Assembly (NCBI RefSeq): GCF_900106095.1
Contig: NZ_FNUD01000002.1
Location: forward strand, 889,501 to 953,500
Origin: Pseudomonas deceptionensis
GTDB taxonomy: Bacteria; Pseudomonadota; Gammaproteobacteria; Pseudomonadales; Pseudomonadaceae
Length of the DNA stretch: 64,000 nucleotides
Direction: 5' to 3'
This document shows, piece by piece, positions 1 to 17,744 of the stretch. A program made the position numbers and the translations under genes. Below the pieces are notes generated by a model. That model had not been told where the DNA came from. It saw nothing but the letters and a program-made list of their open reading frames with translations, and ran no database searches. Numbering within the stretch: the first letter of the stretch is position 1; every line of letters begins with the position of its first letter.

Positions 1-597
1 AGAGATATTCATGTGGGCTGCAGGCAGCGTATTTAAAGGGATTCGCCCATGCTCGACCCATAAAACAGGGCACTTTGGCAGGCTGCATGCAATCTGCTCA
101 CGTTGCTCATTTGGGACACTATTAGATTTATTCATGACCACTAAACCAGCACTTTTCAGGGCCTCTTGCTGGGTTGCAGGCAAGGGTTTGCCCTGGGCCA
201 GTGCTTGCGCATCCAGCACCATCACACTCGGCTGCAAGGCCAAAACACCGAGCCAGGGCGCCTCGCTGAGCTGCTTCAAAATCTGTACGGGATGACCCAA
301 ACCGGAAGGTTCGATAAACAGTCGATCGGGGCGAGCCTTGCGTAATAGACGGCTCAAGCCGATCTGAAAAGGCGCGCCATTGACGCAACACACGCATCCG
401 CCTGCCACTTCGGCAATGGCGATTGCGTCATCTGCCTGGCTCATCAGGGCAGCATCCAGGCCGATTTGGCCGAACTCATTAACCAGCACCGCCCAGCGTT
501 CGTGCGCGGGTTTGTGCGCCATCAGGTGCTGAATCAGACTGGTTTTGCCGGCGCCAAGGGGCCCGGCAATCACGTGGGTAGGAATGTTCTGCAGCAT
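1..597 (-). CDS. COG0523 (CobW-like) GTPase, C-terminus beyond window
   Basis: The reading frame starts at an ATG at 597 and stays open to the left edge, so only the first 199 residues are visible. Walker A GPLGAGKT is at residues 12-19 and the COG0523 metal-binding motif CVCC is at 68-71, followed by VNGAPFQ. Family members are GTPases that insert or hand over metals, mostly zinc or cobalt. The expected guanine-specificity motif NKxD reads NKSN here. The gene follows the DUF1826 gene by 40 bases and the second COG0523 gene, so it is probably the third cistron of a Zur-controlled operon. The substrate metal and client protein cannot be read from the sequence. Confidence is high for the family and low for a specific role. 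Confidence 0.88.
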   Translation of the reverse strand, partial: MLQNIPTHVIAGPLGAGKTSLIQHLMAHKPAHERWAVLVNEFGQIGLDAALMSQADDAIAIAEVAGGCVCCVNGAPFQIGLSRLLRKARPDRLFIEPSGLGHPVQILKQLSEAPWLGVLALQPSVMVLDAQALAQGKPLPATQQEALKSAGLVVMNKSNSVPNEQREQIACSLPKCPVLWVEHGRIPLNTLPAAHMNIS

Positions 598-637
598 GAT
601 CGCCAGCTTCTGTAGAGGTCCAAGCGAGCAATATGCC

Positions 638-1288
638 TCAGGCCAGCCAGTCGAGGGTCAAAATCAGACGTCGTTCGCCCTGCGCCAGAGCAGGCGAACG
701 ATGGATCAAGCCCGCTCCCTCGTTACCCTGCCACTTTTCGCCCTTGAGCAAGGCCACTTCACCGGCATTTATTTGCTGAATCAACCCGACCTCGTTTGGC
801 TCGGCCTGTACCTGCCCCAGCTGACGACGCTCCATAACGCCTTCCTCCAGCCACTGGCTACCAATCCCCGCATAAGTGGTAATAAGCCGCACAGGTACGT
901 GATCCACATGAAAGCGTGGACACATGGCCTTATCCAGGGCCCTGAGACGCAGCCCAATGCGTTTTGCGCCCAACAGACACGCATAGGCACTGACCAGCCA
1001 GGAAACATCGGCAATAAAGCCTGCATAGCCTTCCAGATCATGAAACCTGGATGCCAGGCCGTGGAGGTTGGGTCGCGTATCTTCATTGGCTACTTCCAGA
1101 ACGATGGCGTCAGCCAATGGCTCGTCCAGGGAGAGCAATAACGCTCCGAAATCAACAATTTGCACAGGCAACTGACGCTGCCAGATCGCCAGATTCACCG
1201 CTTCATCAAGGATTCGCGTCATGGCATCCGGGGTTTGCCCGCGAACCTGATGAATCAAAGGTTGAGCCGTCTGAGCAAAGGCATTCAT
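638..1288 (-). CDS. DUF1826 family protein
   Basis: A 216-residue soluble protein of the DUF1826 family, whose function is not established. The ATG at 1288 overlaps the zigA stop (TGATG) and is preceded by AGGTGG; a GTG at 1291 would also be in frame. The second half carries PRFHVDHVPVRLITTY and, about 80 residues later, HRSPA then RRLILTLD. The HxD plus distal H spacing resembles a 2-oxoglutarate-dependent oxygenase metal site, but that is inference. Its place between two COG0523 GTPases under a Zur box suggests a job in zinc-limited cells. Confidence 0.82.
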   Translation of the reverse strand: MNAFAQTAQPLIHQVRGQTPDAMTRILDEAVNLAIWQRQLPVQIVDFGALLLSLDEPLADAIVLEVANEDTRPNLHGLASRFHDLEGYAGFIADVSWLVSAYACLLGAKRIGLRLRALDKAMCPRFHVDHVPVRLITTYAGIGSQWLEEGVMERRQLGQVQAEPNEVGLIQQINAGEVALLKGEKWQGNEGAGLIHRSPALAQGERRLILTLDWLA

Positions 1289-2496
1289 CACGCAGCCACC
1301 TCTTCATGCCATTCACCGAACGGGTCGCTCAGCTGTTTCCAGCCTTCTGCGCCCAGTGCCATCTCTGCATCGCTGAGCAAACAGGCATCGAGCTCAGCCG
1401 TCAGCAAGGCAAAGTCGATGTGTTGACCAATAAACACCAACTCCTGCCGGCAATCGGCGGTGTCCGGCAGCCATTTCTGAAGAATTTCGGCCTTCGCTTC
1501 CGGATCTTGTGGCCACTGGTCGCGGGGGACATAGCGCCACCAGCGCCCGGCAAACCCGTAACGCATCAAACCACCCGCCTGGGACCAGCTGCCCGCTTCC
1601 TGATATTTACTGGCCAGCCAAAAAAAACCTTTAGAGCGCAGCAATTTACCGTTGGTCCATGGACGCTCAATAAAATTAAAAAACCGTTCCGGATGGAAGG
1701 GCCGGCGCGCGCGATAAGCGCTGGAGGCAATGCCATATTCTTCGGTTTCGGGCACATGCTCGCCGCGTAACTCCTGTAACCAGCCGGGAGCTTGGGCCGC
1801 ACGCTCAAAGTCAAAACGTCCGGTATCCAGAATTTTATTGAGCGGAACTTCGCCCATCACCATAGGAATGATTTCAGCCTGGGCGTTCAGCCGCTCCAGA
1901 ATGGCGATTAATTCCTGACGATCAGCACTGCTGATGAGATCAATTTTGCTGATCAAAATAACGTCAGCGAACTCGATTTGCTCAATCAACAAATCAGTAA
2001 TTGACCGTTCGTCGGATTCCCCAAGGGTTTCGCCCCGTGAGTCCAGGCTCTCTGCGGCTTGAAAATCCTGCAAGAAATTCAGGCCATCCACCACCGTGAC
2101 CATGGTGTCCAGCCGGGCAATATCGGCCAGGCTTTGGCCCGCTTCATCGCGAAAAGTGAAGGTTTCTGCTACCGGGAGCGGTTCTGAAATACCGGTTGAT
2201 TCGATCAGCAAATAATCGAATCGTCCGTCCTTCGCCAATGCACTGACCTCCTCCAGCAAGTCTTCCCGAAGGGTGCAGCAGATGCAGCCATTGCTCATTT
2301 CGACGAGTTTTTCTTCTGCACGATTCAAGGTCACGTCGCGCTGGACTGCCCCGCCATCAATATTTATTTCGCTCATGTCATTAACGATCACCGCCACGCG
2401 CAAGTTGTCGCGGTTACGCAAAATATAATTTAGCAGGGTGCTTTTTCCTGCTCCGAGAAATCCGGACAGCACTGTCACCGGCAGACGTTTAGGCAT
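1288..2496 (-). CDS. zigA: Zinc-responsive COG0523 GTPase (ZigA-like)
   Basis: A 402-residue GTPase of the COG0523 metallochaperone family. Walker A GFLGAGKS is at residues 12-19, the metal motif CICC at 71-74, and the G-domain motif ISKID follows. The C-terminal CobW_C domain contains [13 protein letters not shown] lies seven bases before the ATG. It is the first gene of the leftward operon zigA-DUF1826-cobW and faces folE2 across the Zur palindrome, whose site overlaps the probable TATAAT of this gene. In P. aeruginosa the orthologous position is PA5535. The family is induced by zinc shortage and is thought to supply scarce zinc to selected enzymes. Confidence 0.9.
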
Positions 2497-2565
2497 GGGA
2501 GTTCCTCATCAGGGTTGGCAGGTCAAAGCGCCCGCTTGTTGGCTCGATCATTTTCGATCGTCGAT

Positions 2566-2584
2566 AATGATACATTATAACAAT
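2566..2584. promoter_or_regulatory. Zur operator (zinc uptake regulator box)
   Basis: AATGATACATTATAACAAT is an imperfect palindrome. It matches the usual gammaproteobacterial Zur core (AATGTTATANTATAACATT) at 15 of the 18 defined positions. It lies in the divergent gap between zigA and folE2, two genes typically repressed by zinc-loaded Zur, so a single operator probably shuts both directions. Confidence 0.85.
2574..2579 (-). promoter_or_regulatory. Probable -10 hexamer of the zigA promoter
   Basis: Read on the minus strand this is a perfect TATAAT, about 78 bases before the zigA ATG and entirely inside the Zur palindrome. No good -35 hexamer is evident 17 bases upstream. The overlap would let Zur block polymerase binding directly. 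Confidence 0.5.
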
Positions 2585-2643
2585 ACAAAGCATTAGAATT
2601 GTTATTGAGTAACAAAACGCCAACTCCCTCGATGGAAGCCTTT

Positions 2644-3540
2644 ATGAATGCCCTCACCCTTCCCGACATTGCGTCACAAAACGCCCGACAAGCTGTCCCA
2701 CTAGAATGGGTTGGAATGTGCGGCATTGCGCTACCGGTTGTGATTGACGGTCAGCGACTCACCGCAACAGCCGACGCAGGTGTAAGCCTGGATGACGGTG
2801 AAGCGCGCGGGATTCATATGTCGCGACTTTATTTAGCGCTAGAAGTACTCGAGTCGCAGGACCTGAACCCTCTCGTTTTTAAAAAAGTTTTGCAGCAATT
2901 TCTCGACAGCCATGACGATTTATCGATCTGCGCATACCTGCGAATTCACACCCACGTACTGCTTAAACGCCCCGCCTTAGTCAGCCCTTTGAGTGGCTGG
3001 AAGAGTTACCCGGTGAGTATCGATGCCTCCCTGAAAAACGGAATGTTCCACGTGGAACTAAAAATTGACGTGGATTACTCATCGACTTGCCCGTGCTCAG
3101 CCGCATTGGCCAGGCAGTTAATCCAGCAACAATTCGTTAATGACTTCGCCAACAAGCCACTGCAACACGCCGAAGTTTTAACCTGGCTTGGCAGTTCGCA
3201 GGGCATTGTTGCAACGCCCCATAGCCAACGAAGCACCGCCTACCTAAAGACACTTCTCAGCACTGAGCTGCAGCAGTTCCCAATCAGCATGCTGATCGAT
3301 CAAGCAGAAGCGGCATTGGGTACCGCCGTACAAACCGCAGTGAAGCGCGCAGATGAACAAGCCTTCGCGTTAGCCAATGGTCAGAACCTGATGTTCTGTG
3401 AGGATGCAGCGCGCCGACTGAATGTCGCGTTAAAGGTTGTCCCAGGGGTGAAAGGCTTTAGCCTCAAAGTGGTCCACGCCGAAAGTTTGCACAGCCATGA
3501 CGCCGTGGCCGAGAGCCACTGGAACTGGAGAACACGATGA
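2644..3540 (+). CDS. folE2: GTP cyclohydrolase FolE2 (type IB, zinc-independent)
   Basis: A 298-residue FolE2 that makes dihydroneopterin triphosphate from GTP, the first step of folate synthesis. FolE2 accepts metals other than zinc and replaces zinc-dependent FolE under starvation. Visible family features are GIHMSRL (residues 56-62) and STCPCS with Cys149 and Cys151. I chose the ATG at 2644 because GGAAG lies five bases upstream and the protein then begins MNALTLPDIA, as in homologues; in-frame ATGs at 2599 and 2632 are less likely. It follows the Zur box, and its stop overlaps the next gene by four bases. Confidence 0.93.
   Translation: MNALTLPDIASQNARQAVPLEWVGMCGIALPVVIDGQRLTATADAGVSLDDGEARGIHMSRLYLALEVLESQDLNPLVFKKVLQQFLDSHDDLSICAYLRIHTHVLLKRPALVSPLSGWKSYPVSIDASLKNGMFHVELKIDVDYSSTCPCSAALARQLIQQQFVNDFANKPLQHAEVLTWLGSSQGIVATPHSQRSTAYLKTLLSTELQQFPISMLIDQAEAALGTAVQTAVKRADEQAFALANGQNLMFCEDAARRLNVALKVVPGVKGFSLKVVHAESLHSHDAVAESHWNWRTR
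3044..3059. other. parS-like site inside folE2 (15/16 match)
   Basis: TGTTCCACGTGGAACT differs from the Pseudomonas parS consensus TGTTCCACGTGGAACA only in the last base. ParB would be expected to bind it. It lies within the coding sequence, about 37 kb left of the dnaA-side origin. Confidence 0.75.
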
Positions 3541-4097
3541 TCCGCAAAAATCCGTCCGGTGATTTACCGCAGATCGCCGAGTCAGCGTACGTCGATAGAA
3601 CCGCGATTATTTGCGGCAAGGTGGTGATCGGCGAAAACGTATTTGTCGGGCCTTATGCCGTGATACGCGCCGACGAGGTAGACAGTGAAGGAGGCATGCT
3701 CCCGATCACTATCGGGGCCAATTCCAATATCCAGGACGGGGTGGTGATTCACTCGAAGTCCGGGGCGGCAGTCACTATTGGTGAGAGCACCTCGATAGCG
3801 CACCGCTCCATCGTCCACGGGCCATGCCGTGTGGGCGATCGAGTCTTTATCGGATTCAACAGTGTGCTGTTCAATTGCGAGCTGGGTGACGGCTGTGTGG
3901 TGCGGCATAACTCGGTCGTCGATGGCCGCGACCTGCCTGAGAATTTTTACGTTCCGTCCACGACCCGCATCGGGCCAAACACTGACCTGAGCCAATTCGC
4001 TCCAGTCAGTGTCAGTGCATCGGAGTTTTCAGAGGATGTAGCGCGCACCAATGTCGATCTGGTGCGCGGCTATAAAGCGCTGCAAAACGAGTTCTGA
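3537..4097 (+). CDS. Gamma-class carbonic anhydrase-like hexapeptide protein
   Basis: A 186-residue left-handed beta-helix protein of the gamma-carbonic anhydrase family. Repeating hexapeptides (for example VVIGEN, VTIGES, CRVGDR) run through residues 25-150. The three histidines expected to hold the active-site metal fit H72 (VVIHSKSG), H89 and H94 (IAHRSIVHG). Its ATG overlaps the folE2 stop (ATGA), so the two are co-transcribed under Zur. In P. aeruginosa PA5539-PA5540 have the same order. Gamma enzymes can use iron or cobalt, so it may stand in for zinc-dependent anhydrases; activity is inferred. Confidence 0.87.
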   Translation: MIRKNPSGDLPQIAESAYVDRTAIICGKVVIGENVFVGPYAVIRADEVDSEGGMLPITIGANSNIQDGVVIHSKSGAAVTIGESTSIAHRSIVHGPCRVGDRVFIGFNSVLFNCELGDGCVVRHNSVVDGRDLPENFYVPSTTRIGPNTDLSQFAPVSVSASEFSEDVARTNVDLVRGYKALQNEF

Positions 4098-6303: not shown

Positions 6304-6789
6304 ATGAAGTTCCCGCTATTGGGTTTTGTCTTCAGCATCAGCACGCTTGCTCAAGCTCAAACGCCTGCCACTCCTCCCGCCAAGCCTCTGATAAACGTGG
6401 AGGTCGGTCAGCCGACTTACATCCACCGGCTGCACTACAAAAAAATGTACAGCGAAAAGCCTTTTGAAGAAGCTGTGCTCTATTACTACAACAATGGCGT
6501 CTACAAAATCATTTCCCCGGGCGAGAACCACTACGGCGTGTATGTGGTTGAGGGGGACTTCACTGACGACCAATACCGCATCAGCTACATCTCCCTGCCC
6601 TCACCCGACTGGGGAGGTAACGTTGCCCGCCACGACCTTGTCTTCAAAAAAAGCTCACAGACCTTCGATCAAAAAGCCCTGGCCCAGGTTGATCAAAATA
6701 TCGGTATCCAGAACGGGCGTTTCGTCCTGGATAAAAACCCGGAACAAGACCCGGGCCCCATCACGTGGGAAACCCACTCTCAGCGATAA
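6304..6789 (+). CDS. Small exported protein of unknown function
   Basis: A 161-residue protein I do not recognise. A signal peptide spans about residues 1-19 (cut after AQA), followed by a proline-rich linker and a tyrosine-rich body (LYYYNNG, HYGVYVVEG). There is no lipobox, no cysteine in the mature part and no membrane segment, so it is probably free in the periplasm. I chose the ATG at 6304 because AAGGA lies eight bases upstream; an in-frame ATG at 6277 falls inside the hairpin. Its 3' end overlaps the convergent cfa gene by ten bases. Confidence 0.7.
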   Translation: MKFPLLGFVFSISTLAQAQTPATPPAKPLINVEVGQPTYIHRLHYKKMYSEKPFEEAVLYYYNNGVYKIISPGENHYGVYVVEGDFTDDQYRISYISLPSPDWGGNVARHDLVFKKSSQTFDQKALAQVDQNIGIQNGRFVLDKNPEQDPGPITWETHSQR

Positions 6790-7964
6790 ATATCCGCCCT
6801 GGTCGGTGGCAGCTCCAGCGAGCCATCGGCATGAGGTTTGGTCGCCAGGATCTGGTCAATGTTGATCCATCCATGAGCGAAGGCGTAAGCACAACCCGCC
6901 AGATACAGCCGCCAAATACGCAGGGCCTGTTCCGGGACCTGTTTGGCGGCAGCCTCAAGGTTGTGCTCCAGTCGCTGGCTCCAATGCTCCAGCGTGCGCG
7001 CGTAATGCAGACGCAAGCTTTCAACATCGACCACTTCCAGCCCCACCTCGCTGATCTCGGCAGTCATCATCGACAGATGCGGCAACTCACCGTTAGGGAA
7101 CACATAACGATCGATAAACTCACCGGCCCCGCGACCGACCTGACGGCCATCGGTGTGCTTGGATGTAATCCCGTGGTTCATCACCAGCCCGCCCTCACGC
7201 ACGGCCCTGGACAGAATTTCGCAATACTCGCGCAGGTTGGCGTGCCCCACGTGCTCGAACATCCCGACGCTGACGATTTTATCGAACCGGCCATCTTGGG
7301 GCAGATCGCGGTAGTCCAGCAGTTGCAGATCAACCTTGTCCTGCAGACCTTCGGCTTTGACCCGTTCACGAGCAAGTTTGAGTTGCTCCTTGCTCAAGGT
7401 AATCCCGAAGACCTTGACCCCATATTCCCGCGCGGCAAAACGCGCCAGCCCGCCCCAGCCACAGCCAACATCCAGCAAGTATTCACCGGGTTTGAGTCGC
7501 AGCTTGCGGCACAGCAGGCGGAACTTGGCTTGCTGTGCTTCATCCAGGCTCTCTTCACCGGTTTCAAAATACCCACAGGAATAAGCCATGTCGCGGTCGA
7601 GCCACAACTGATAGAAGTCGTTGGACAGGTCGTAGTGATAAGAAATGGACTCGGCATCGGTGGCCTTGTCGTGATAAACGCGAGGAGGCGCGCTGGCCGT
7701 GTCATCACTCACCAGCGCCTGGCTCAATTCATCGCATACGCGAATGGCTTCGCTGATTGAGCCTTCCAGTTCAAGCCGGCCCTCAACAAAAGCACTGCCC
7801 AGCAGGTCGAGACTGGGGTTGGTAAATTGAGCCACGAGGGTCGGATCCTTGACCACAATCGTGACGCTGGGCGTCGGGCCAAAATTGAACTCGTGGCCGT
7901 CCCACAGCCTTAGCCGTAATGGAAGTTGAAGTTTCTGTAAGGCCGGCGGAAGTTGCGCGAGCAT
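6780..7964 (-). CDS. cfa: Cyclopropane-fatty-acyl-phospholipid synthase
   Basis: A 394-residue enzyme that transfers a methylene group from S-adenosylmethionine to double bonds of membrane phospholipid acyl chains. The SAM-binding motif DVGCGWGG is near residue 165, preceded by YHYDLSNDFYQLWLD and followed by VGMFEHVG, all typical of the family. GGAGG is seven bases before the ATG. The C-terminal ten bases overlap the 3' end of the convergent exported-protein gene. Cfa acts at the inner leaflet and is usually a stationary-phase function. Confidence 0.93.
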   Translation of the reverse strand: MLAQLPPALQKLQLPLRLRLWDGHEFNFGPTPSVTIVVKDPTLVAQFTNPSLDLLGSAFVEGRLELEGSISEAIRVCDELSQALVSDDTASAPPRVYHDKATDAESISYHYDLSNDFYQLWLDRDMAYSCGYFETGEESLDEAQQAKFRLLCRKLRLKPGEYLLDVGCGWGGLARFAAREYGVKVFGITLSKEQLKLARERVKAEGLQDKVDLQLLDYRDLPQDGRFDKIVSVGMFEHVGHANLREYCEILSRAVREGGLVMNHGITSKHTDGRQVGRGAGEFIDRYVFPNGELPHLSMMTAEISEVGLEVVDVESLRLHYARTLEHWSQRLEHNLEAAAKQVPEQALRIWRLYLAGCAYAFAHGWINIDQILATKPHADGSLELPPTRADIYR

Positions 7965-8077: not shown

Positions 8078-9994
8078 TTAATCGCAGGCCGGTTTAAGTG
8101 CCACCAAAGGCTCATGAAACCGCAGTAAGCGCCCTGCATTGCCCAGCACCAATAACGTGCTGAGGTTATGCAACACGGCGGCAATCATTGCCCCCGCCAC
8201 GCCCAGCCAGCCAAAAGCCGCAGCAGCCACAATGGCCAGGGTCCAGCCCAGACCGATGATCACATTGACGTGCAATGTGTGACGGCACTCGCGGCTCAGG
8301 CGAACGCAGGTCCCCAGCCGTCTCAAGTCACTGCCTATCAACACAATGTCCGAGGATGCCAACGCGATATCCGCCCCCCCTGCGCCCATCGCAACGCCCA
8401 CCACACCAGCCTTGAGCGCCAGCGAATCGTTGATGCCATCACCCACCACCATGGGCCGGAAACCGCTGTCTATTTCGCTCAATACACGGTTGAGCTTGTC
8501 TTCGGGGAGCGCCTGCGCCTGCACCTCGCTGATGCCTACCGTGTGTGCCAAATGCTGCGCAACGCTCTGGCGATCGCCGGTCAGCAGGACCTGACGGCCA
8601 AGCCCCAGCTCGCGCAGCTCACCCAACGCCTGTCGGGCTTCGGGTTTGATGCTGTCCGCCAACAACAGCCAGCCGAGAAACGCATCATTGAGCGACAGGC
8701 CTGCAATGGGCCCGTCGTGATCAGGCACGGTGGTCGTGCTGATACCCAACTGGCTGAACAACTCGGGGCGGCCCAAGGCCGCTTCGCCCTGCTCCGTGCT
8801 GGCAACTACGCCCAACCCCTGACGCTCACGAACATCGCTCAGCGCCAGCATGTGTTCGTGACTCACCAGACCGGCCAGGGCCCTGCTCACCGGGTGACTG
8901 CTGGCGGCGCCCAAACTGGCGGCCAGTTGCAGTAGCGGTTGTTGGTCGGTCTGCTCCGTTTCAATCCCTTGCAGCCGCAAGGTGCCGTAAGTCAGGGTGC
9001 CGGTTTTATCCACAACCAAAGACGTGAGATCCGCCAGCTCTTCAAGGAACGCCGAACTGCGGATCAAAATCCCGTGGCGTGCAGCCACGGCAATGCCGGC
9101 AATCGCCGTCGCCGGTGCCGACAGGACCAACGCGCAAGGGCACGCCGCCACCAACACGGCGAGCATTACCTGTGCATCGTTGGTGATAAACCAGGTCACT
9201 GCCGCGATCATCAACACCAGCACCATGTAGCTGCCGGCGTAGCGCTCAAGCAACCGCGTGATCGGCGGTTTGGCGCGCTCGGCGCTTTGCATCAAAGCGA
9301 TGACTTTACCCAGGGTCGACTCCTGACCGGTGCGCGTGACTTGCACCCGCAGCAAGCCATCAAGGTTGATCGCCCCACCAAAAATCGGCTGACCGACACT
9401 GACTTCAAGGGGTACCGACTCACCGGTGATCGAAGCCGTGTCGAGACTGGCCTGCCCCGCCAGCACCACACCATCGGCGGGTACCCGGTCACCCGCGCGC
9501 ACTTCAACCTGGTCACCGGTTTCAAGTGTGGCGTTGTCGACTTCCAGCAAACTGCCGTCAGCCTGAAACAGGCGCGCCTGGCTGCGGGTCAGCTTGCCCA
9601 GTGCGTGGATCGCTTCTTGTGAACCGATCACGCTGCGCTCTTCAAGCACGTGGCCGAAGATCATGATGATTGGCAGCAGTGCCGCCGTCAGCAAATCTCC
9701 GGTGGCCCAGGCACCGAGCATGGCCAGGGCAATCAGCTGATCAGTGATCCCATGCAGGCTCGGGTAGCGCAGGCTGTACCAGGCCGAACGCATGACAGGC
9801 ACGGCCACCAATAGGGAAGCGAAGCCCAGCAGCAACTGACTGACGCCGATTTGTGCGGGCATCAGCCAGCGCCATACCAGCCCCAAACCCAACAAGCCCA
9901 GCGCCAGCATGGCCAGGGTCAGTTGGCGCGCGGCGCTGCGTTGCTCGGCACCGCTGAGCAGGCTGACGGCGGGTTGAGTGGCGGACGTACTCAT
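8078..9994 (-). CDS. P1B-type metal ATPase (HmtA-like)
   Basis: A 638-residue P1B ATPase with the actuator motif ITGES, membrane motif ACPCALV, phosphorylation motif DKTGTLT, the SSHP dipeptide and GDGIND hinge. It has no N-terminal heavy-metal-associated domain. The last membrane span reads HNLSTLLVLGN, which is neither the MxxSS of copper exporters nor the DxG of ZntA. Last gene of a leftward operon, it overlaps the preceding SPFH gene by four bases (ATGA). From memory, P. aeruginosa HmtA (PA2435), a zinc/copper importer, lies beside SPFH genes PA2437-PA2439, so import is the favoured direction. Metal and direction are inferred, not shown. Confidence 0.85.
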   Translation of the reverse strand: MSTSATQPAVSLLSGAEQRSAARQLTLAMLALGLLGLGLVWRWLMPAQIGVSQLLLGFASLLVAVPVMRSAWYSLRYPSLHGITDQLIALAMLGAWATGDLLTAALLPIIMIFGHVLEERSVIGSQEAIHALGKLTRSQARLFQADGSLLEVDNATLETGDQVEVRAGDRVPADGVVLAGQASLDTASITGESVPLEVSVGQPIFGGAINLDGLLRVQVTRTGQESTLGKVIALMQSAERAKPPITRLLERYAGSYMVLVLMIAAVTWFITNDAQVMLAVLVAACPCALVLSAPATAIAGIAVAARHGILIRSSAFLEELADLTSLVVDKTGTLTYGTLRLQGIETEQTDQQPLLQLAASLGAASSHPVSRALAGLVSHEHMLALSDVRERQGLGVVASTEQGEAALGRPELFSQLGISTTTVPDHDGPIAGLSLNDAFLGWLLLADSIKPEARQALGELRELGLGRQVLLTGDRQSVAQHLAHTVGISEVQAQALPEDKLNRVLSEIDSGFRPMVVGDGINDSLALKAGVVGVAMGAGGADIALASSDIVLIGSDLRRLGTCVRLSRECRHTLHVNVIIGLGWTLAIVAAAAFGWLGVAGAMIAAVLHNLSTLLVLGNAGRLLRFHEPLVALKPACD

Positions 9995-11049
9995 TGTTCG
10001 GCTCCCTGAATAATCAGGCGGGAATCATCTTCAGGATCAACGCTGGTGACAGAGCCGGCCTGGCTCAAAATCCTCGGCATGCGTTCGCGGTACAGACGCA
10101 ACATCAGGCCCGGGTCATTACCGGCCTGCTGCACCTTGGCCAAATTGATGATGGTGGACGTATCCGCCTGCGCCTTGGCCAGGCGCTCACTGGCTTGAGC
10201 CTGCGCCTGCTCGACACTGCGGTCGGCTTGTTGGGTGGCCGACTGGGTGACTTTGGCAGCTTCGTTACGGGCCGCGGCCACCGCTTGTTCGGCGTGCTGG
10301 CTGGCAGTCAGTACCGCGTTGAAGGCATTGACCGCAGGGCCCGGCAAACTGGATTGCACATCCACGCGCACCACTTCCAGGCCAAGGCTCTGGCCTGTCG
10401 TACTCAGGGCGGCAAGTTGTTGATTGATACCCTGCACCAGATCACCGCGCAGACGCTCGCGGCGTTCGGCCGCCTGGCTGTCGCTGCCAATCAGTTCGGG
10501 GCGAGCCACCAGGATCGTGTCCAGATCCCGGGCGGCCGTGAGGGCTACCGCGCTGCGCGTTACCAGACGGTCCAGCGCAGGCAATACGTGCTCACCTTGC
10601 AGCACAAAGGCATAGGGTTCGGTGACGTTGTAAAACACCCGCACATCCAGTTGCACCACACCCGCATCGCCCGTCAGCAGATACCCGGAGCCGGCCAGTG
10701 CATCGTTGATCGGCGTAGCAAATGTCGCCACCCGGTCGGCCTGCAGCGCGGCATCTGAGCGCATGAGGTTATCTATCCTGCGCTCACTCACGCGGTCTGC
10801 AGCAGGGACGATCACCACTTGCTCGAAGGGCCTTGGCCACGCCAGCAACAAGCCGGCATTTTGAATGCGATCCAGCGCGCCCATGCGTAACACCACCGCA
10901 CGATTTTGCGGATCGATCTGGCGCACGTTGGAAAACCCCCACGCCACCGCCGCGAAAACCGTCACGGCATACAAGCCCAAAAAAGCCAGGCGCCCGGCCT
11001 GTTGCCATGGGCTGCTGGCCCCTTTTGTCGCTTCAGGTTCCTGATTCAT
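9991..11049 (-). CDS. HflK-like SPFH/prohibitin protein
   Basis: A 352-residue protein with a short cytoplasmic N-terminus, one membrane span (about residues 18-38), an SPFH domain starting near QNRAVVLRMGALDR, and a long Ala/Gln/Glu-rich helix (about 240-310) of the kind that coils in HflK/HflC cages. It ends with LMLRLYRERMPRIL, as in HflK. It overlaps both neighbours by four bases (11046-11049 and 9991-9994), indicating coupled translation with the HflC-like protein and the ATPase. Housekeeping HflK/HflC restrain FtsH; this set is a paralogue beside a metal pump, so an FtsH role is doubtful. Confidence 0.82.
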   Translation of the reverse strand: MNQEPEATKGASSPWQQAGRLAFLGLYAVTVFAAVAWGFSNVRQIDPQNRAVVLRMGALDRIQNAGLLLAWPRPFEQVVIVPAADRVSERRIDNLMRSDAALQADRVATFATPINDALAGSGYLLTGDAGVVQLDVRVFYNVTEPYAFVLQGEHVLPALDRLVTRSAVALTAARDLDTILVARPELIGSDSQAAERRERLRGDLVQGINQQLAALSTTGQSLGLEVVRVDVQSSLPGPAVNAFNAVLTASQHAEQAVAAARNEAAKVTQSATQQADRSVEQAQAQASERLAKAQADTSTIINLAKVQQAGNDPGLMLRLYRERMPRILSQAGSVTSVDPEDDSRLIIQGAEQ

Positions 11050-12059
11050 GGCTGCGATCCAGCCTTGGCATCCAGCTTCGGCGGGCCGTCGACCAGTACA
11101 CGAAACGGCGCTGCATCGGTACGCAAAATGATTTTTGTCCCCGGGTTAACCATCGTGCCCAGCGTATCGAGCGAGCGCAGTTCGTTGTACAGCTCGGGCG
11201 AACTGGCATAAGCGCGGCCGTAAATCTGCGCCGCTTCGACCCGCGACTGGGCTTCAATATCGGCAGCCTTGATGCTGGCATCCGCCTGGAGAATCCGCGC
11301 ATCGCGTTCGGCGGCTGAACGTATCTGCGCCGCTTCACGTTTGCCAACGGCGGTGCGCTCAGTGGCGATGGTCTCGCGCTCAGCGCGCATACGGTCAACG
11401 GTGGCCGTGAGCGTCACCGAGGGCAACGTCAGCCGTTCGACACCCACTTGCAGTACGCGTACCCCGTAAGTACTGAGCAGTTGCTGTTCGATCTGCTGGC
11501 GCAGTTGCGCTTCGAAGTCGGCAATTCTGACCTGGCTGGCATCAGTGTTCACCAGGCTTGAGAGATCAAAACTGGCGGCCGTGGTTTCCAGTGCCGAGCC
11601 GACAAAGGTACGAATCTGCCGGGCAGCTTCGTCTGGCTGGTTCTGCACCGCGCGCATGAATCGCTGCACATTCTCGGCATCGGGCTGCACCTGCCACGCG
11701 ACATAGGCCTGCACAATAATCCGCAAACCATCGCGGGTGCCCACGTCCTGCAAACCGCTGGAAGTGGTACGCAAACGCAAATCCACCGGTACGCTGACTT
11801 CAAAAGGTGCCGGCCAGCGCCAGCCCAACCCCGGTTCTAGCAACACCCGGGCCGGGTTGCCAAAGCGGGTGATGACCGTCGCTTCACCGGAGCGTACTTG
11901 CACCAGGCTGGCAGCGGCGATGGCAAACAGCACCAGCAGCGCGGCCCAGCCCATGCGTCGCCACGGGAACGGGCTCGGCTCGTGGTCGTCACCATGAGCG
12001 TGATGGCCGTGGTGTGAACAGCCATGATGATGGCCGCTGTGATCGTGAGATTGAGACAA
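11046..12059 (-). CDS. HflC-like SPFH protein with His-rich N-terminus
   Basis: A 337-residue protein. Its first 26 residues hold 11 histidines and a cysteine (HDHSGHHHGCSHHGHHAHGD), followed by one membrane span (about 37-54) and an SPFH domain (VRSGEATVITRFGNP onward), then a charged helix (MRAERETIATERTAV) typical of HflC. The start is a TTG at 12059: AGGAG lies eight bases upstream and the next ATG would fall after the His cluster. By HflC topology the His tail should be cytoplasmic, so it may bind metal there. The ATPase encoded two genes later lacks its own metal-binding domain. Confidence 0.8.
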   Translation of the reverse strand: MSQSHDHSGHHHGCSHHGHHAHGDDHEPSPFPWRRMGWAALLVLFAIAAASLVQVRSGEATVITRFGNPARVLLEPGLGWRWPAPFEVSVPVDLRLRTTSSGLQDVGTRDGLRIIVQAYVAWQVQPDAENVQRFMRAVQNQPDEAARQIRTFVGSALETTAASFDLSSLVNTDASQVRIADFEAQLRQQIEQQLLSTYGVRVLQVGVERLTLPSVTLTATVDRMRAERETIATERTAVGKREAAQIRSAAERDARILQADASIKAADIEAQSRVEAAQIYGRAYASSPELYNELRSLDTLGTMVNPGTKIILRTDAAPFRVLVDGPPKLDAKAGSQP

Positions 12060-12071
12060 AATAAGGGCTCC

Positions 12072-14006
12072 TTACTGAGCAGCTTTACGCGGCGCGACAG
12101 GATCGGCCGGCAGCGTGAAAGAACGCAGATCGAGGGTCGGCGCACTGCTGCCCCCGAGGCGATGGTCGAGGATCAGCAATCTGGCGTTGTTCAGTCCCAG
12201 GCTTAACTGGCTTAAATACTGCTCAAGCAAAAACGCATGGCCGGCGCTGGCGTAGGCTTTTTGTTCAGCGCCAAAACGCAGATCCGCCGTCTGTGCGGTA
12301 GCGTTCACTTCACGTGCCAATGCATGGGCCTGGTCCAGCGCGACACTGGCCTGCAATTGCGCCACGTTGGTTTGTTCACTGGCGGCCCCCCGCTCACGGG
12401 CAATCAAGGCCTGCGCACTGATTTGGGCAGCCTGGACACCGTGATACGCATTGGCTGCACCGGCCGGTGGATGAATGGCTTCAACCACGGTGGCCAGAAT
12501 TTCGACCCCGCTGTCGAGCGTATCCAGATCAGCCTGGACGGCGCGACCGATGTCATCGGCCAACGCGCTGCGCTGTTCACCGAGCACACCATCGAGTGTG
12601 CGCGAGGCAAAGTCGTGGACCAGAATGCGACTTGCGGTACTGCGGATCAGCGTCGGGACGTCATCGCTGTGATAAGTGGCGGCCATGGCAGCACGGTCAC
12701 TCAGGCCAATGCGGTACACAAAACGCACGTCCATGTTGACGATTTGAAAGCCCTGCCTGTCGCCGCTGTCGCTGGCAATCACCTGAGACTTGTCATTCAC
12801 ATGGGTGGCGTCCCACAACCGGTTGGCCGTAAGCGGTGGCAAGCCATCGGCAGGCGTGAGCAACGGATCGATGGTCGATTCAGTGCTGGTCGCCAATTCA
12901 TGCACCACACCATTTTCGACCGCCAATACCCGGCCCAATGGCCAAGGCAAACCGGCGTGCAGTCCCGGCCCCAACACGTCAACCGGTTTACCGAAGCGCT
13001 CATAAATCCCGCGACCTTGAAGCGGGATTTCATTCACGCCGCTCAGTACCCAGCCGACCGCAACCACCACCGCCAGCACCGGGAAGAACGCTTTACGCAT
13101 GTACGTAAACGCCCAGATTTGACGCAGGTCGATACCAAAGCGGTTATGCAGTTCGTGCTGCAGCGCCAGCAATGGTTGAGGCGGCCAACGCAACATGCCC
13201 GCAACAAAACTTTGGGCAATCATCCGTGGTTCGAGCTTGTCGCGACGCGGACTGAACAACGCCGCCACCGCACGCAGGATCAACTCAATCGCCACAGCGG
13301 CAGGCAGCAGCCCCGTCAACACGGCCAAACGGGCTGGCCACAGCGCATCGTCGCTGCTGAATAACAGGCAAACGGCGCTCAGTAAAAAAGTCAGAATCGG
13401 GACGCGAGCCAACGGCGCGAGCACGTGTGCTTCCGGCCATTGCGCAGGTAACTGCTGTGCCAGATAACGCTCGAACACCAGCAGCGCAAATGCGAGCGCA
13501 ATGGCGAGCCCTGCCGCGATACTGCCCCACGCACCCATCGCGTAGCCCGGCAATGCCAGGCTCCAGGTGTGTTGCACGCTCCACCACGCAGCGCCGCCCA
13601 CACCGGCCAGCCACAACACCGGCTCACCGATCGTGGCTAACAGGCGTTGTGCCCCTGTATTGATCCGCTGGTTCAAGCGTTCAATACCTTCGGGTTGTTC
13701 GTCGGGTTCGTCCTGGAACACTTCAGGCGCAGGGTTGAGTGCCTCGCGACGCCAACGTGCCACCCAATAGGCCGATTGAGCACCAGCCCCCAGCACCAGC
13801 AGAGCTGCCGCATTGTTATTAAGCAGCACCGGCCACAGCGACTCCGATGAGAACAGCCCAATGGAAAAGGCCAGCGCCCACGCCAAAATCACTAAAACCG
13901 CCAGCACTGCACTCAGTTGATAGAGCTGGCTGGCCTGTGCAGAGGCACTTTGAAAACGAGGCAAAGACTCAAGCCTCTCCTCCTCGGCATCTAAATCGAC
14001 GCGCAT
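12072..14006 (-). CDS. Polytopic SPFH (HflK-like) membrane protein
   Basis: A 644-residue protein much larger than HflK (about 400). It has about seven hydrophobic segments: roughly residues 30-52, 57-80, 125-145, 155-178, 203-218, 226-250, and 310-330. An SPFH domain begins at GRGIYERFGKPVDVLGPGL and a C-terminal Ala/Gln-rich helix follows. The ATG at 14006 is preferred; a GTG at 14018 is also in frame but has no ribosome-binding site. It is the first gene of the four-gene operon, 12 bases before the HflC-like gene. Six extra spans in front of an SPFH domain are unusual. Function unknown. Confidence 0.78.
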   Translation of the reverse strand: MRVDLDAEEERLESLPRFQSASAQASQLYQLSAVLAVLVILAWALAFSIGLFSSESLWPVLLNNNAAALLVLGAGAQSAYWVARWRREALNPAPEVFQDEPDEQPEGIERLNQRINTGAQRLLATIGEPVLWLAGVGGAAWWSVQHTWSLALPGYAMGAWGSIAAGLAIALAFALLVFERYLAQQLPAQWPEAHVLAPLARVPILTFLLSAVCLLFSSDDALWPARLAVLTGLLPAAVAIELILRAVAALFSPRRDKLEPRMIAQSFVAGMLRWPPQPLLALQHELHNRFGIDLRQIWAFTYMRKAFFPVLAVVVAVGWVLSGVNEIPLQGRGIYERFGKPVDVLGPGLHAGLPWPLGRVLAVENGVVHELATSTESTIDPLLTPADGLPPLTANRLWDATHVNDKSQVIASDSGDRQGFQIVNMDVRFVYRIGLSDRAAMAATYHSDDVPTLIRSTASRILVHDFASRTLDGVLGEQRSALADDIGRAVQADLDTLDSGVEILATVVEAIHPPAGAANAYHGVQAAQISAQALIARERGAASEQTNVAQLQASVALDQAHALAREVNATAQTADLRFGAEQKAYASAGHAFLLEQYLSQLSLGLNNARLLILDHRLGGSSAPTLDLRSFTLPADPVAPRKAAQ

Positions 14007-14147
14007 GGAAATTCTCACTTATGAAATATCTAGTAACGATATCGCAGAAGTGATGAAACTTTTGTCCAGCCAACGCATTCTTCATCTTTGCCGAGAGGGG
14101 TAATCGCTGCGCATAAAAACTTATCCACAGCGATTACAGGTGCTGCA

Positions 14148-15482
14148 TTACTGCGGGTGATCGATCAACTGTTTGGCCAGGGCCTCAAACGCCGGAATGG
14201 TCACCGGGTCGTTCGCTGAATTGCTGGCAATCGGGTTGGACGCATAACGCACAATCACCATCTCGGCTTTGGGGTCGATGTAGGTGCGTTGGCCGTACAC
14301 ACCACGCGCCATGAAAGCACCGTCGGCGTTGTGCGTCACCCACCACATATTGCGATAACTGCTGCCTTTGAGCAGGTCATAACCAGCCTTGGAAAAGGCC
14401 GACTTGTCACCGCCGGCACGAATTTCATCCACCACCGCTTTAGGCACGATTTGTTGGCCCAGATACTGGCCATCATTGCGGATCATCTCGCCAAAGCGCG
14501 CCATATCACGCAGCCCGGTATTCAGGCCACCGCCTGCGAAAGGCGTTCCAATGGAGTCGACGGTGAAATACGCATCCTGTTCAGCGCCGATACGCTGCCA
14601 GATTTTTTCAGACATTAGTTGTGCGACATTTTTTCCGGTTACCCGCGCAAGCACCCAACCCAGCACATCGGTATTCACTGTTTTATAAGCGAACGCTTCA
14701 CCGTGCTCGCCCTGGGGTTCAACCGTCTGCAAATACTCCATGTAGCTTTGCGGGCCGGTGTAATCCTTGGGTTTAGGCAGCGGGTTCCCGGCCTGTGCGT
14801 GCTTCCAGACTTCAGCATTCGGGTCGGCATAATCTTCGCTGTATTTGAGCCCGGTGGTCATGTCCAGCACCTGACGCAAGGTGGCGTTGCCAAAAGCCGA
14901 CTTGGCCAGCTCCGGAACATACTCTGCAATTTTTTTATTGGCATCCAGCGTGCCATCAGCCACCAGCATCGCGCCCATGGTGCCCACCACCGATTTAGTC
15001 ATCGACATTGCGGCGTGCTGGCCTTCGGGGTTCAACACGCCGAAGTAACGCTCATAAATAATTTTTCCGCGGTGCAGTACCACAATACCGTCGGTGTAAT
15101 TAGCCGCCAGTGACTGCTCCCAAGTCATTGGTTGCTTGCTGCCCAATGGCACAAAGGTCAAACCGTCGATATCCGTACGCAAGGCGCTGGCCAGCGGCAC
15201 GGGATCACCCAAGCCACGGGAAACATTGGTGGTGGGCATCAATTGGCGAAAATTGGAAACACTCCAGCGCATGGCCGGAAAATTAAAATAACTGCCGTCG
15301 GCAAAACGTACGATGCGATCAGGAGGTGGTGGCGCACCGACCATCCAGCCCATGGTTTTGGGATCACTGGCAGCGGCATCGGGGTAAGTGGTTTTGTCGC
15401 CAGCGCAGGCAACCGAAGCCGCCAGGCAAGAAAATAAAAAAACCGCGCTGGTGCGGGCGGGTTTGAAAAAATGTTTAAACAT
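14148..15482 (-). CDS. Exported serine hydrolase, beta-lactamase (class C-like) fold
   Basis: A 444-residue protein with a signal peptide (about residues 1-27, cut near ACA). The SxxK nucleophile motif is SMTK at residues 160-163, in the context AAMSMTKSVVGT. The general base region reads FAYKTVNTD, and a late KAEMVIVRY strand closes the fold. It resembles 6-aminohexanoate-dimer hydrolase and esterase-type members more than true AmpC. AAGGA precedes the ATG by eight bases. The LysR gene lies directly upstream in the same direction. The natural substrate cannot be told from sequence. Confidence 0.85.
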   Translation of the reverse strand: MFKHFFKPARTSAVFLFSCLAASVACAGDKTTYPDAAASDPKTMGWMVGAPPPPDRIVRFADGSYFNFPAMRWSVSNFRQLMPTTNVSRGLGDPVPLASALRTDIDGLTFVPLGSKQPMTWEQSLAANYTDGIVVLHRGKIIYERYFGVLNPEGQHAAMSMTKSVVGTMGAMLVADGTLDANKKIAEYVPELAKSAFGNATLRQVLDMTTGLKYSEDYADPNAEVWKHAQAGNPLPKPKDYTGPQSYMEYLQTVEPQGEHGEAFAYKTVNTDVLGWVLARVTGKNVAQLMSEKIWQRIGAEQDAYFTVDSIGTPFAGGGLNTGLRDMARFGEMIRNDGQYLGQQIVPKAVVDEIRAGGDKSAFSKAGYDLLKGSSYRNMWWVTHNADGAFMARGVYGQRTYIDPKAEMVIVRYASNPIASNSANDPVTIPAFEALAKQLIDHPQ

Positions 15483-16501: not shown

Positions 16502-16832
16502 GCCGCCTCCTTGCTGACGTTATCCACAGGCCAGAAACCACTCGACCCGCAGAGCGGGTCGAGTGGGTGTGAATCCAGAGAATTAAAACTGTTGCACCCA
16601 GTAATGACAAGACATCCACATACATTTGATATGGGTCTCTGGGTCAGATTAAAGGGAACAACGATGCATCGCTGATCATTGTGACTGATAGTCGGCTTCA
16701 TCAAGGCTTGAGCGTTTGACTGGTTCGGGTTCGGCATTACTCACGTTATGTCTTAAAATAGCCGGTTGCCGAAGAACCGTCATGAGCATAGCCGTGAAGG
16801 GCTTCCATCCTTTACATATAAGTGTGGTCAAG
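16502..16832. other. Intergenic region between LysR gene and GNAT-Rnk gene
   Basis: A 331-base divergent gap. It holds an exact DnaA box (16520-16528), a perfect 13-bp inverted repeat (16538-16566) and, near 16630-16665, the stretch GGGTCAGATTAAAGGGAACA. I recall that stretch from the flanks of Y1/REP-associated transposase genes, but no transposase is present here. Short ORFs in it lack ribosome-binding sites and are not called. Confidence 0.5.
16538..16566. repeat. Perfect 13-bp inverted repeat upstream of LysR gene
   Basis: CCACTCGACCCGC and GCGGGTCGAGTGG are exact reverse complements around AGA. The repeat lies 37 bases before the LysR start with no U-tract on either side. It could be an operator, a leader hairpin or a small REP-like unit. 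Confidence 0.65.
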
Positions 16833-17744
16833 ATGAACAAGCCTTTCATTTCTCTGTGCCCTGAAATTACTCGTGCGCACGCGTTAACGTTGATGGATTG
16901 GTTGGAGGATGAACGCGTCACCTGCTATCTGAGCGATTCGCGTCATGTCTCCCGCTCCATCGAACAAGTCATCGATCGGACTCAATTGCCGATCCTGACC
17001 CATCTATTCAACCAGGGCGGCCGATTCTTCATGGCCTATGACCGGCATGACGCTCCGGTGGGCTTTGTCCGTCTAATCAAGACCGGCTCAAATTGCGAGA
17101 TAGTCCTGGTCATCGGAGACAGCGACAAATGGGGCCGAAACCTTGGCGCCCGCACGATCCGCGAAGGTATGAAACTGGCCTTTCTCGACATGCGGGCAAA
17201 GAAACTCATCGCCAAGATCCACCCGGACAACGCACGCTCGCTGAAAGCCTTTCTGCGCAGCGGCTTTGTGCTTGAGAGCGAAACGCCGACATTGAAGTCA
17301 TTTTCCATGACGGCGAAGCACTATCTCCAGCTCTTGCGCGAAGGTACCGTTGGCGACTCCACCAGGATCTACATCACTGAAATCGACAAAGCCAGGCTCG
17401 AGAGTCTAATCGCGCTCGAGCAAGGCCCGGTCGTTGTTGAACTCGAACATGAGCTTGAGCGAGCCATTGTCGTCAAGCCGCAGCAGGTGGCGAGCAATGT
17501 CGTCACGATGAACTCCAGGGCCTTGCTGCAGCTGGACGACGAAGAGATCGAAGTGGCCTTGGTCTACCCTGAAGACGCGGACAGCAACGCAGGGAAGCAT
17601 TCCGTGTATTCCGACATTGGCGCCGCCATCCTGGGCTATCAGGAGGGGGATTCCATCGACTGGCGAATTTCTGATAGGACCCGCCGGATTGAGATCAGGA
17701 AAGTGCTTTACCAGCCGGAAGCTGCGGGCGATTTCCACCTGTAA
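16833..17744 (+). CDS. GNAT acetyltransferase fused to Rnk/GreA-GreB-type domain
   Basis: A 303-residue two-domain protein. Residues 1-165 form a GNAT fold with FFMAYDRHDAPVGFVRL, a probable acetyl-CoA loop GRNLGARTIREGM and IHPDNARSLKAFLRSGF. Residues 178-303 match the nucleoside diphosphate kinase regulator Rnk and the GreA/GreB C-terminal domain (LDDEEIEVALVYPEDAD, then SVYSDIGAAILGYQEGD and IDWRI). Rnk-type domains bind RNA polymerase near its secondary channel. The start at 16833 is chosen by homology (MNKPFISLCPE); in-frame ATGs at 16716 and 16782 exist and no strong ribosome-binding site decides. The acetylation target is unknown. Confidence 0.82.
   Translation: MNKPFISLCPEITRAHALTLMDWLEDERVTCYLSDSRHVSRSIEQVIDRTQLPILTHLFNQGGRFFMAYDRHDAPVGFVRLIKTGSNCEIVLVIGDSDKWGRNLGARTIREGMKLAFLDMRAKKLIAKIHPDNARSLKAFLRSGFVLESETPTLKSFSMTAKHYLQLLREGTVGDSTRIYITEIDKARLESLIALEQGPVVVELEHELERAIVVKPQQVASNVVTMNSRALLQLDDEEIEVALVYPEDADSNAGKHSVYSDIGAAILGYQEGDSIDWRISDRTRRIEIRKVLYQPEAAGDFHL

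Follow-up and report, generated by a model that had tools for sequence, protein, structure and literature searches.

The window analysed here is a 64,000-nucleotide stretch of Pseudomonas deceptionensis (NCBI RefSeq assembly GCF_900106095.1, contig NZ_FNUD01000002.1, positions 889,501 to 953,500), and it contains an operon for three SPFH proteins and a P1B-type ATPase. Judged by the P. aeruginosa protein P0278 and by the published gene order, this operon is the orthologue of the P. aeruginosa hmtA cluster (PA2439-PA2435; PaFlo5-7). Its four genes form a block that is inherited, moves and is retained as a whole. We propose, with a probability of a little under one half, that they are one functional unit for zinc scarcity, in which a ring of SPFH proteins and a pump form a zinc-acquisition assembly. 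The unit and its role in zinc scarcity are well supported; enclosure of the pump by the SPFH proteins and the import direction are what we infer beyond this.

All four genes lie on the minus strand and span 14006-8078 of the window in the list of open reading frames (Table 1). A 12-base gap is followed by two 4-base ATGA overlaps, as a sequence-only reading of this DNA had described. The products it had named, an SPFH protein, a His-rich HflC-like protein, an HflK-like protein and a P1B ATPase, are confirmed by Pfam and by the sequences: Band_7 is found in all three SPFH proteins, and the fourth protein carries E1-E2_ATPase and Hydrolase and no HMA domain. The first gene starts with ATG, an alternative GTG at 14018 being possible, and the TTG start of the HflC-like gene is preceded by AAGGAG.

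To assess linkage, each sample was queried with several of the genes, at thresholds strict enough to exclude paralogues. Three queries (the ATPase, the HflC-like and the seven-helix SPFH protein) returned the identical 19 of 148 genomes in the family sample; two of them, the ATPase and the seven-helix protein, returned the identical 11 of 398 in the phylum sample. Among 72,556 plasmid records, the searches with the ATPase, the HflC-like and the HflK-like protein returned the identical 10; the seven-helix search returned those 10 and a canonical hflK in Tistrella. The plasmid coordinates place the four genes adjacent and in order in 10/10 cases, five of which were examined in detail; NfeD, the flotillin partner gene, is absent from the annotated neighbours in four plasmid loci. 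The order SPFH-HflC-HflK-ATPase was found in 79 of the 80 named Pseudomonas loci analysed (the best 80 of 206 stretches), in 13/13 further family loci and in 3/3 loci from another family or class. The exception, L037, lies at a contig end and was left out of the four-gene count and of the ATPase motifs. L082 has only a partial HflK-like match, and the contigs of L046 and L067 end within the ATPase gene. As the linkage is all-or-none in both the family and the phylum sample and the order is kept, we reject a chance neighbourhood. The co-occurrence check proposed by the sequence-only reading thus found the genes of the homologous neighbourhoods together and not commonly apart.

The block is present in alpha-, beta- and gammaproteobacteria. 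In an even class sample, only the genome of the window itself matched (1/274, with at most four candidates scored per genome among the rows listed), and hence the block is rare outside its lineages. In the SPFH tree, for which only the operon groups were used and the canonical HflK/HflC were compared separately, all three SPFH groups contain the close pairs L146/L150 and L147/L151, and two of the three contain L152/L153. A block that moves as one would be expected to give this pattern. Entomomonas, an insect symbiont, and Utexia have ATPases that are 84% identical. Within the large Pseudomonas group, the operon stays in place with cfaB and cls as neighbours, each being present in 76 of the 87 loci when 17 kb are considered; this counts as one event.

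The published order of the P. aeruginosa cluster PA2434-PA2439 (HflK-family, HflC, HflC-family, P1B ATPase) is the same as in the window, with an orthologous ATPase, and P0278 is 56% identical to the seven-helix protein. HmtA with SPFH neighbours, as named by the sequence-only reading, is supported. Inside P0278, some 50 residues are repeated in the coiled part of its SPFH region, which could be an assembly error. The cluster is already known as a zinc-starvation cluster: PA2434-PA2439 is 5.6- to 14.4-fold up in a znuA mutant and has a weak Zur site (PMC4542158; PA2436 is absent among the table rows listed there), and a second published study found higher levels of its proteins in zinc depletion. 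The promoter of PA2439, the first gene of the hmtA locus, is shifted by Zur in the presence of zinc (PMC8531726). The three SPFH genes, termed FtsH modulators, are induced by N-acetylcysteine together with the Zur regulon (PMC9431628). Papers naming both hmtA and HflC exist, with the genes tabulated together, but a literature search found no paper combining hmtA and SPFH (other databases lay outside its scope), and the listings for SPFH with a P-type ATPase, an operon or a microdomain held no description of the pair.

The SPFH proteins of the cluster have been named PaFlo5-7. In strain PA14, PaFlo5-PaFlo6-PaFlo7 are likewise three SPFH proteins of one predicted operon, with an organisation and context shared in few species, for which horizontal transfer has been suggested (PMC13086221). 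The word ATPase is absent from the available text of that paper, and its abstract sees no context conserved across the full SPFH set, whereas here the pump is present in every complete locus. The window also differs from the P. aeruginosa side, represented by the g230 loci (L113 is 82% identical to P0278): a His-rich tail on the ATPase (7/7) and a small additional gene (5/7) are found there, while the window has neither and carries a degenerate Zur box. The small gene lies between the HflK-like gene and the ATPase (L113, 11981-12469; L116-L119), has an apparent signal peptide and encodes 150-175 aa, often with ITLKRPKP or ITLKRPRP.

About 4 kb from the operon end, the window holds a zinc-scarcity cluster with ZigA and FolE2 (Table 1). 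Genes of the same kinds, PA5532-PA5541, are up-regulated in zinc scarcity in P. aeruginosa, where folE2 has a Zur site (PMC4542158). The box TTGTTATTGAGTAACAA overlaps the listed start of FolE2, the true start of which is probably a later ATG. On a Paraburkholderia plasmid (L198, L152), the operon stands at the end of a zinc-uptake island with a TonB receptor and ExbBD, a Fur-family regulator, ZigA, a GTPase, a zinc ABC transporter and a PCu(A)C copper chaperone. The window and this plasmid are two separate zinc-scarcity neighbourhoods with ZigA.

Upstream regions were scored with GTTATNNNATAAC, which we take to be the Zur-like pattern. A palindrome with at least 9/10 matches precedes 82 of 96 operons against 0.5% of shuffles, the 96 regions being related and not independent (L080, too short, was left out of 97). 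Perfect copies of the palindrome stand in L089 and in L147, the latter from another family; L095, L112 and L113 have a weak one, as do the four plasmid loci scored (6-7/10). Before the window operon, GCGATATCGTTAC agrees with GTTATATCGTAAC at 10/13 bases. The latter is found upstream in 68/97 rows and stands at the same distance in L034 (P. psychrophila HA-4), where the box is intact; the degenerate form of the window is identical in L032 (P. fragi) and L033 (a P. psychrophila strain). Four 9/10 matches occur in the window, and only the FolE2 one is at a zinc gene. In a relative, two perfect palindromes (G343:C1:5932207 and 5933960) lie 15-17 kb from the operon.

His-rich tails: In the window, all 11 His of the HflC-like protein precede its single membrane helix, with no His elsewhere. 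Across 97/97 rows (96 loci and the window), 8-19 His stand ahead of this helix, counted on the open frame, which leaves the start codons unpinned; the composition is kept while the sequence drifts. In HflC this side of the membrane is cytoplasmic, and the tail is placed there by analogy; two charges before and two after the helix leave its orientation undecided by charge count. A His-rich N-tail (at least 7 His) is found on the ATPase in 7 of the 94 rows scored (94/97; L037, L073 and L146 were left out), all of them in genus g230 (7/7 g230 loci), and it also occurs in L146 and the plasmid loci L149-L151. Hence, the earlier claim of an ATPase without its own metal-binding part holds for the window and not in general. 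The HflC-like tail is found in four of five plasmid loci; Klebsiella L151 is without it, but its ATPase bears a His tail. This distribution suggests that the tail may serve the pump in trans or in cis.

P1B ATPase: The best PDB relative is 7qbz, the P1B-4 pump sCoaT. The P1B-4 class is defined by the lack of a classical heavy-metal-binding domain, an SPC motif and an HEGxT motif (PMC8880997). The window ATPase shares the first of these features, but CPC replaces SPC and HNxST replaces HEGxT, with the conservation given in Table 1 for an alignment of 99/101 ATPases (L046 and L067, at contig ends, were excluded). In sCoaT, ion release is thought to occur via E658 and E120, and H657 acts as a built-in counter-ion (PMC8880997). 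H657 is kept as H609, while E658 corresponds to N610 and E120 to T103 in 99/99 family members. The lysine and aspartate positions of SsZntA (P1B-2) correspond to T585 and H609 (99/99). By alignment, the ATPase family is a distinct P1B group with its own membrane-site signature (CPC, HNxST), which is new here. As a control, the other P-type ATPases of the genome were inspected, and Thr is found at position 103 in three of the four, against Glu in the fourth, which is ZntA-like by eye. Thus, the E120-to-T change alone is no mark of import, and the full signature is at most compatible with an altered exit path. An AlphaFold2 model of the ATPase was poor (pLDDT 57) and was not used.

Seven-helix SPFH protein: The AlphaFold2 model has six long membrane helices at residues 21-249 and one more at 294-322 (mean pLDDT 66, with good values for the membrane region and for parts of the SPFH domain). 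The seven spans of the sequence-only reading are thus acceptable, if not clear-cut: a Kyte-Doolittle profile at 1.5 recovers just some of the helices. For the SPFH domain, the nearest PDB relatives by sequence are HflK, and Foldseek placed HflK first in one run and tied with prohibitin in another. The first six helices resemble cation diffusion facilitator (CDF) zinc transporters in predicted fold only, a likeness that is also new here. Homology by sequence to CDF proteins such as YiiP and ZnT was rejected, with an hhalign probability of 2 against 29/32 CDF proteins and a match of Cation_efflux PF01545 in 0/37 seven-helix family members at E up to 10; what remains is a fold lead. CDF metal ligands are located in helices 2 and 5, and no conserved Asp or His is found in these two helices of the seven-helix family.

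Table 1 Features of the window around the SPFH-ATPase operon and the zinc-scarcity cluster
Feature	Positions	Strand	Details
Seven-helix SPFH protein, first gene of the operon	12072..14006	-	644 aa; PaFlo5/PA2439 orthologue; Band_7 E 5.7e-20 (Pfam)
Six-helix membrane domain, CDF-transporter-like by predicted fold only	13257..13946	-	residues 21-250
SPFH/Band_7 domain of the seven-helix protein, predicted periplasmic	12384..13016	-	residues 331-541; Pfam
HflC-like SPFH protein	11046..12059	-	337 aa; PaFlo6/PA2438 orthologue; Band_7 E 8.6e-31; TIGR01932 93.6 bits, cut-off 134.4
His-rich N-terminal tail of the HflC-like protein	11961..12059	-	residues 1-33; 11 His, 1 Cys; predicted cytoplasmic by HflC analogy
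HflK-like SPFH protein	9991..11049	-	352 aa; PaFlo7/PA2437 orthologue; Band_7 E 3.4e-16; TIGR01933 98.1 bits, cut-off 159.4
P1B-type ATPase without N-terminal metal-binding domain	8078..9994	-	638 aa; HmtA/PA2435 orthologue; TIGR01525 E 2e-155
CPC motif of the membrane metal site	9134..9142	-	C285, P286, C287; each residue in 99/99 family members
HNxST motif	8156..8170	-	H609-T613; H609, N610, T613 in 99/99; S612 in 97/99
Degenerate Zur-box-like element GCGATATCGTTAC	14033..14045	-	27-39 bases before the ATG of the seven-helix gene
Zinc-scarcity cluster	1..4097		about 4 kb from the operon end
CobW-type GTPase, cut by the window edge	1-597		cobW in Pfam
DUF1826 protein	638-1291		Pfam
ZigA, zinc metallochaperone GTPase	1288-2496		NCBIfam equivalog 674.8 bits, cut-off 600
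FolE2	2599-3540		319.7 bits, cut-off 215
Zur-like box TTGTTATTGAGTAACAA	2599-2615		overlaps the listed FolE2 start
Hexapeptide protein like gamma-carbonic anhydrase	3537-4097		Hexapep in Pfam; below all NCBIfam cut-offs listed

NfeD is likewise missing among the window neighbours scanned with Pfam, which were a cyclopropane synthase, a PF00144 hydrolase, a LysR regulator and a DUF3617 protein. Downstream on the same strand, cfaB (6780-7964) is 113 bases from the operon, and a gene for a beta-lactamase-fold (PF00144) hydrolase lies upstream (14148-15482). An open reading frame at 16716-17744 combines a first part that is GNAT-like by eye with a second part of Rnk/GreA type.

In the proposed assembly, which accords with the guess of the sequence-only reading, the three SPFH proteins would form a hetero-oligomeric ring or cage at the periplasmic face of the inner membrane that holds the P1B ATPase, built as HflK/HflC around FtsH. 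The pump would move zinc, possibly copper, from the periplasm to the cytoplasm. The six-helix domain of the largest SPFH protein may serve as a membrane dock for the pump, and the cytoplasmic His tail may take up, buffer or sense the metal; the HflC-like subunit would carry this tail, in some lineages the ATPase too, and in one case the ATPase alone. The likeness to HflK/HflC-FtsH lies in the SPFH paralogues, their likely periplasmic SPFH domains and a membrane enzyme as partner. The differences are three SPFH proteins instead of two, six additional helices on one and a His tail on another, and a P1B ATPase as the partner gene. Several points weigh against the proposed zinc-acquisition assembly. 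No direct sign of contact between the SPFH proteins and the pump emerged from the analysis. A review states that such pumps usually efflux and that import by HmtA needs confirmation (PMC10393844), and the T103 control takes weight from the missing release carboxylates as evidence for import, which shifted the odds slightly from the assembly to an exporter. Deletions of PaFlo5-7 are nearly without phenotype (PMC13086221); the abstract and headings of that paper, the available text of which mentions zinc once, for FtsH, name no test under zinc limitation. The metal-responsive expression expected by the sequence-only reading is published, for zinc, for the P. aeruginosa cluster, but hmtA mRNA was constantly low in one P. 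aeruginosa zinc time course (PMC8531726), and the Zur box of the window is degenerate. Genome-wide, the count of Zur-like boxes was not clearly above the reversed control in two genomes (3 vs 4 and 9 vs 8).

The explanations weighed here overlap, and their odds need not sum to one. It is doubtful, yet to be taken seriously, that the pump is an exporter like other P1B ATPases, which in zinc scarcity would expel a competing metal (Cu, Co, Fe) or load periplasmic enzymes, the His tail handing metal to the pump. Among solved structures, the nearest relatives are pumps named or described as exporters, a cytoplasmic His tail, in trans and in several lineages in cis, fits metal delivery to the pump, and T103 is common to other P-type ATPases of the genome. 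HmtA overexpression, however, raises cell zinc and copper (reported in PMC10393844), and the replacement of sCoaT E658, proposed for ion release, by N610 in 99/99 is a weak argument in the same direction. The general role proposed for SPFH proteins and the nearly normal deletion mutants (PMC13086221) would both suit proteins that merely organise a lipid microdomain or stabilise the pump, with neither a cage nor metal handling. We consider this unlikely, as three distinct SPFH genes are kept in every complete locus, save for the partial HflK-like match in L082, and the composition of the His tail is kept despite sequence drift.

The SPFH proteins could also be a form of HflK/HflC for zinc starvation, with the zinc protease FtsH as the enzyme that they control or shield and the ATPase merely co-regulated. 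They belong to HflK/HflC-like families, and two papers, one of them PMC9431628, tie the P. aeruginosa genes to FtsH (HflB). All three nevertheless score below the HflK/HflC equivalog cut-offs (Table 1; 59.6 against 159.4 bits for the seven-helix protein), while the canonical pair of the genome is well above them (376 and 280.8 bits). In addition, the all-or-none linkage is with the ATPase, and no ftsH is annotated beside the operon in four plasmid loci, which makes this role quite improbable. The zinc-acquisition assembly can also be drawn in its fullest form, as a new membrane machine: an SPFH cage around a P-type ATPase, with a CDF-derived six-helix domain on one wall protein, a His receiver on another and the P1B pump as an ATP-driven zinc importer. 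A machine of this kind in all its parts appears improbable.

If the three SPFH proteins are constant partners of HmtA, work on HmtA alone has studied an incomplete system, and the published SPFH deletions may have used the wrong medium. SPFH proteins, the purpose of which is unclear in many bacteria, would gain one concrete candidate client, with the metal content under zinc limitation as the measurable output.

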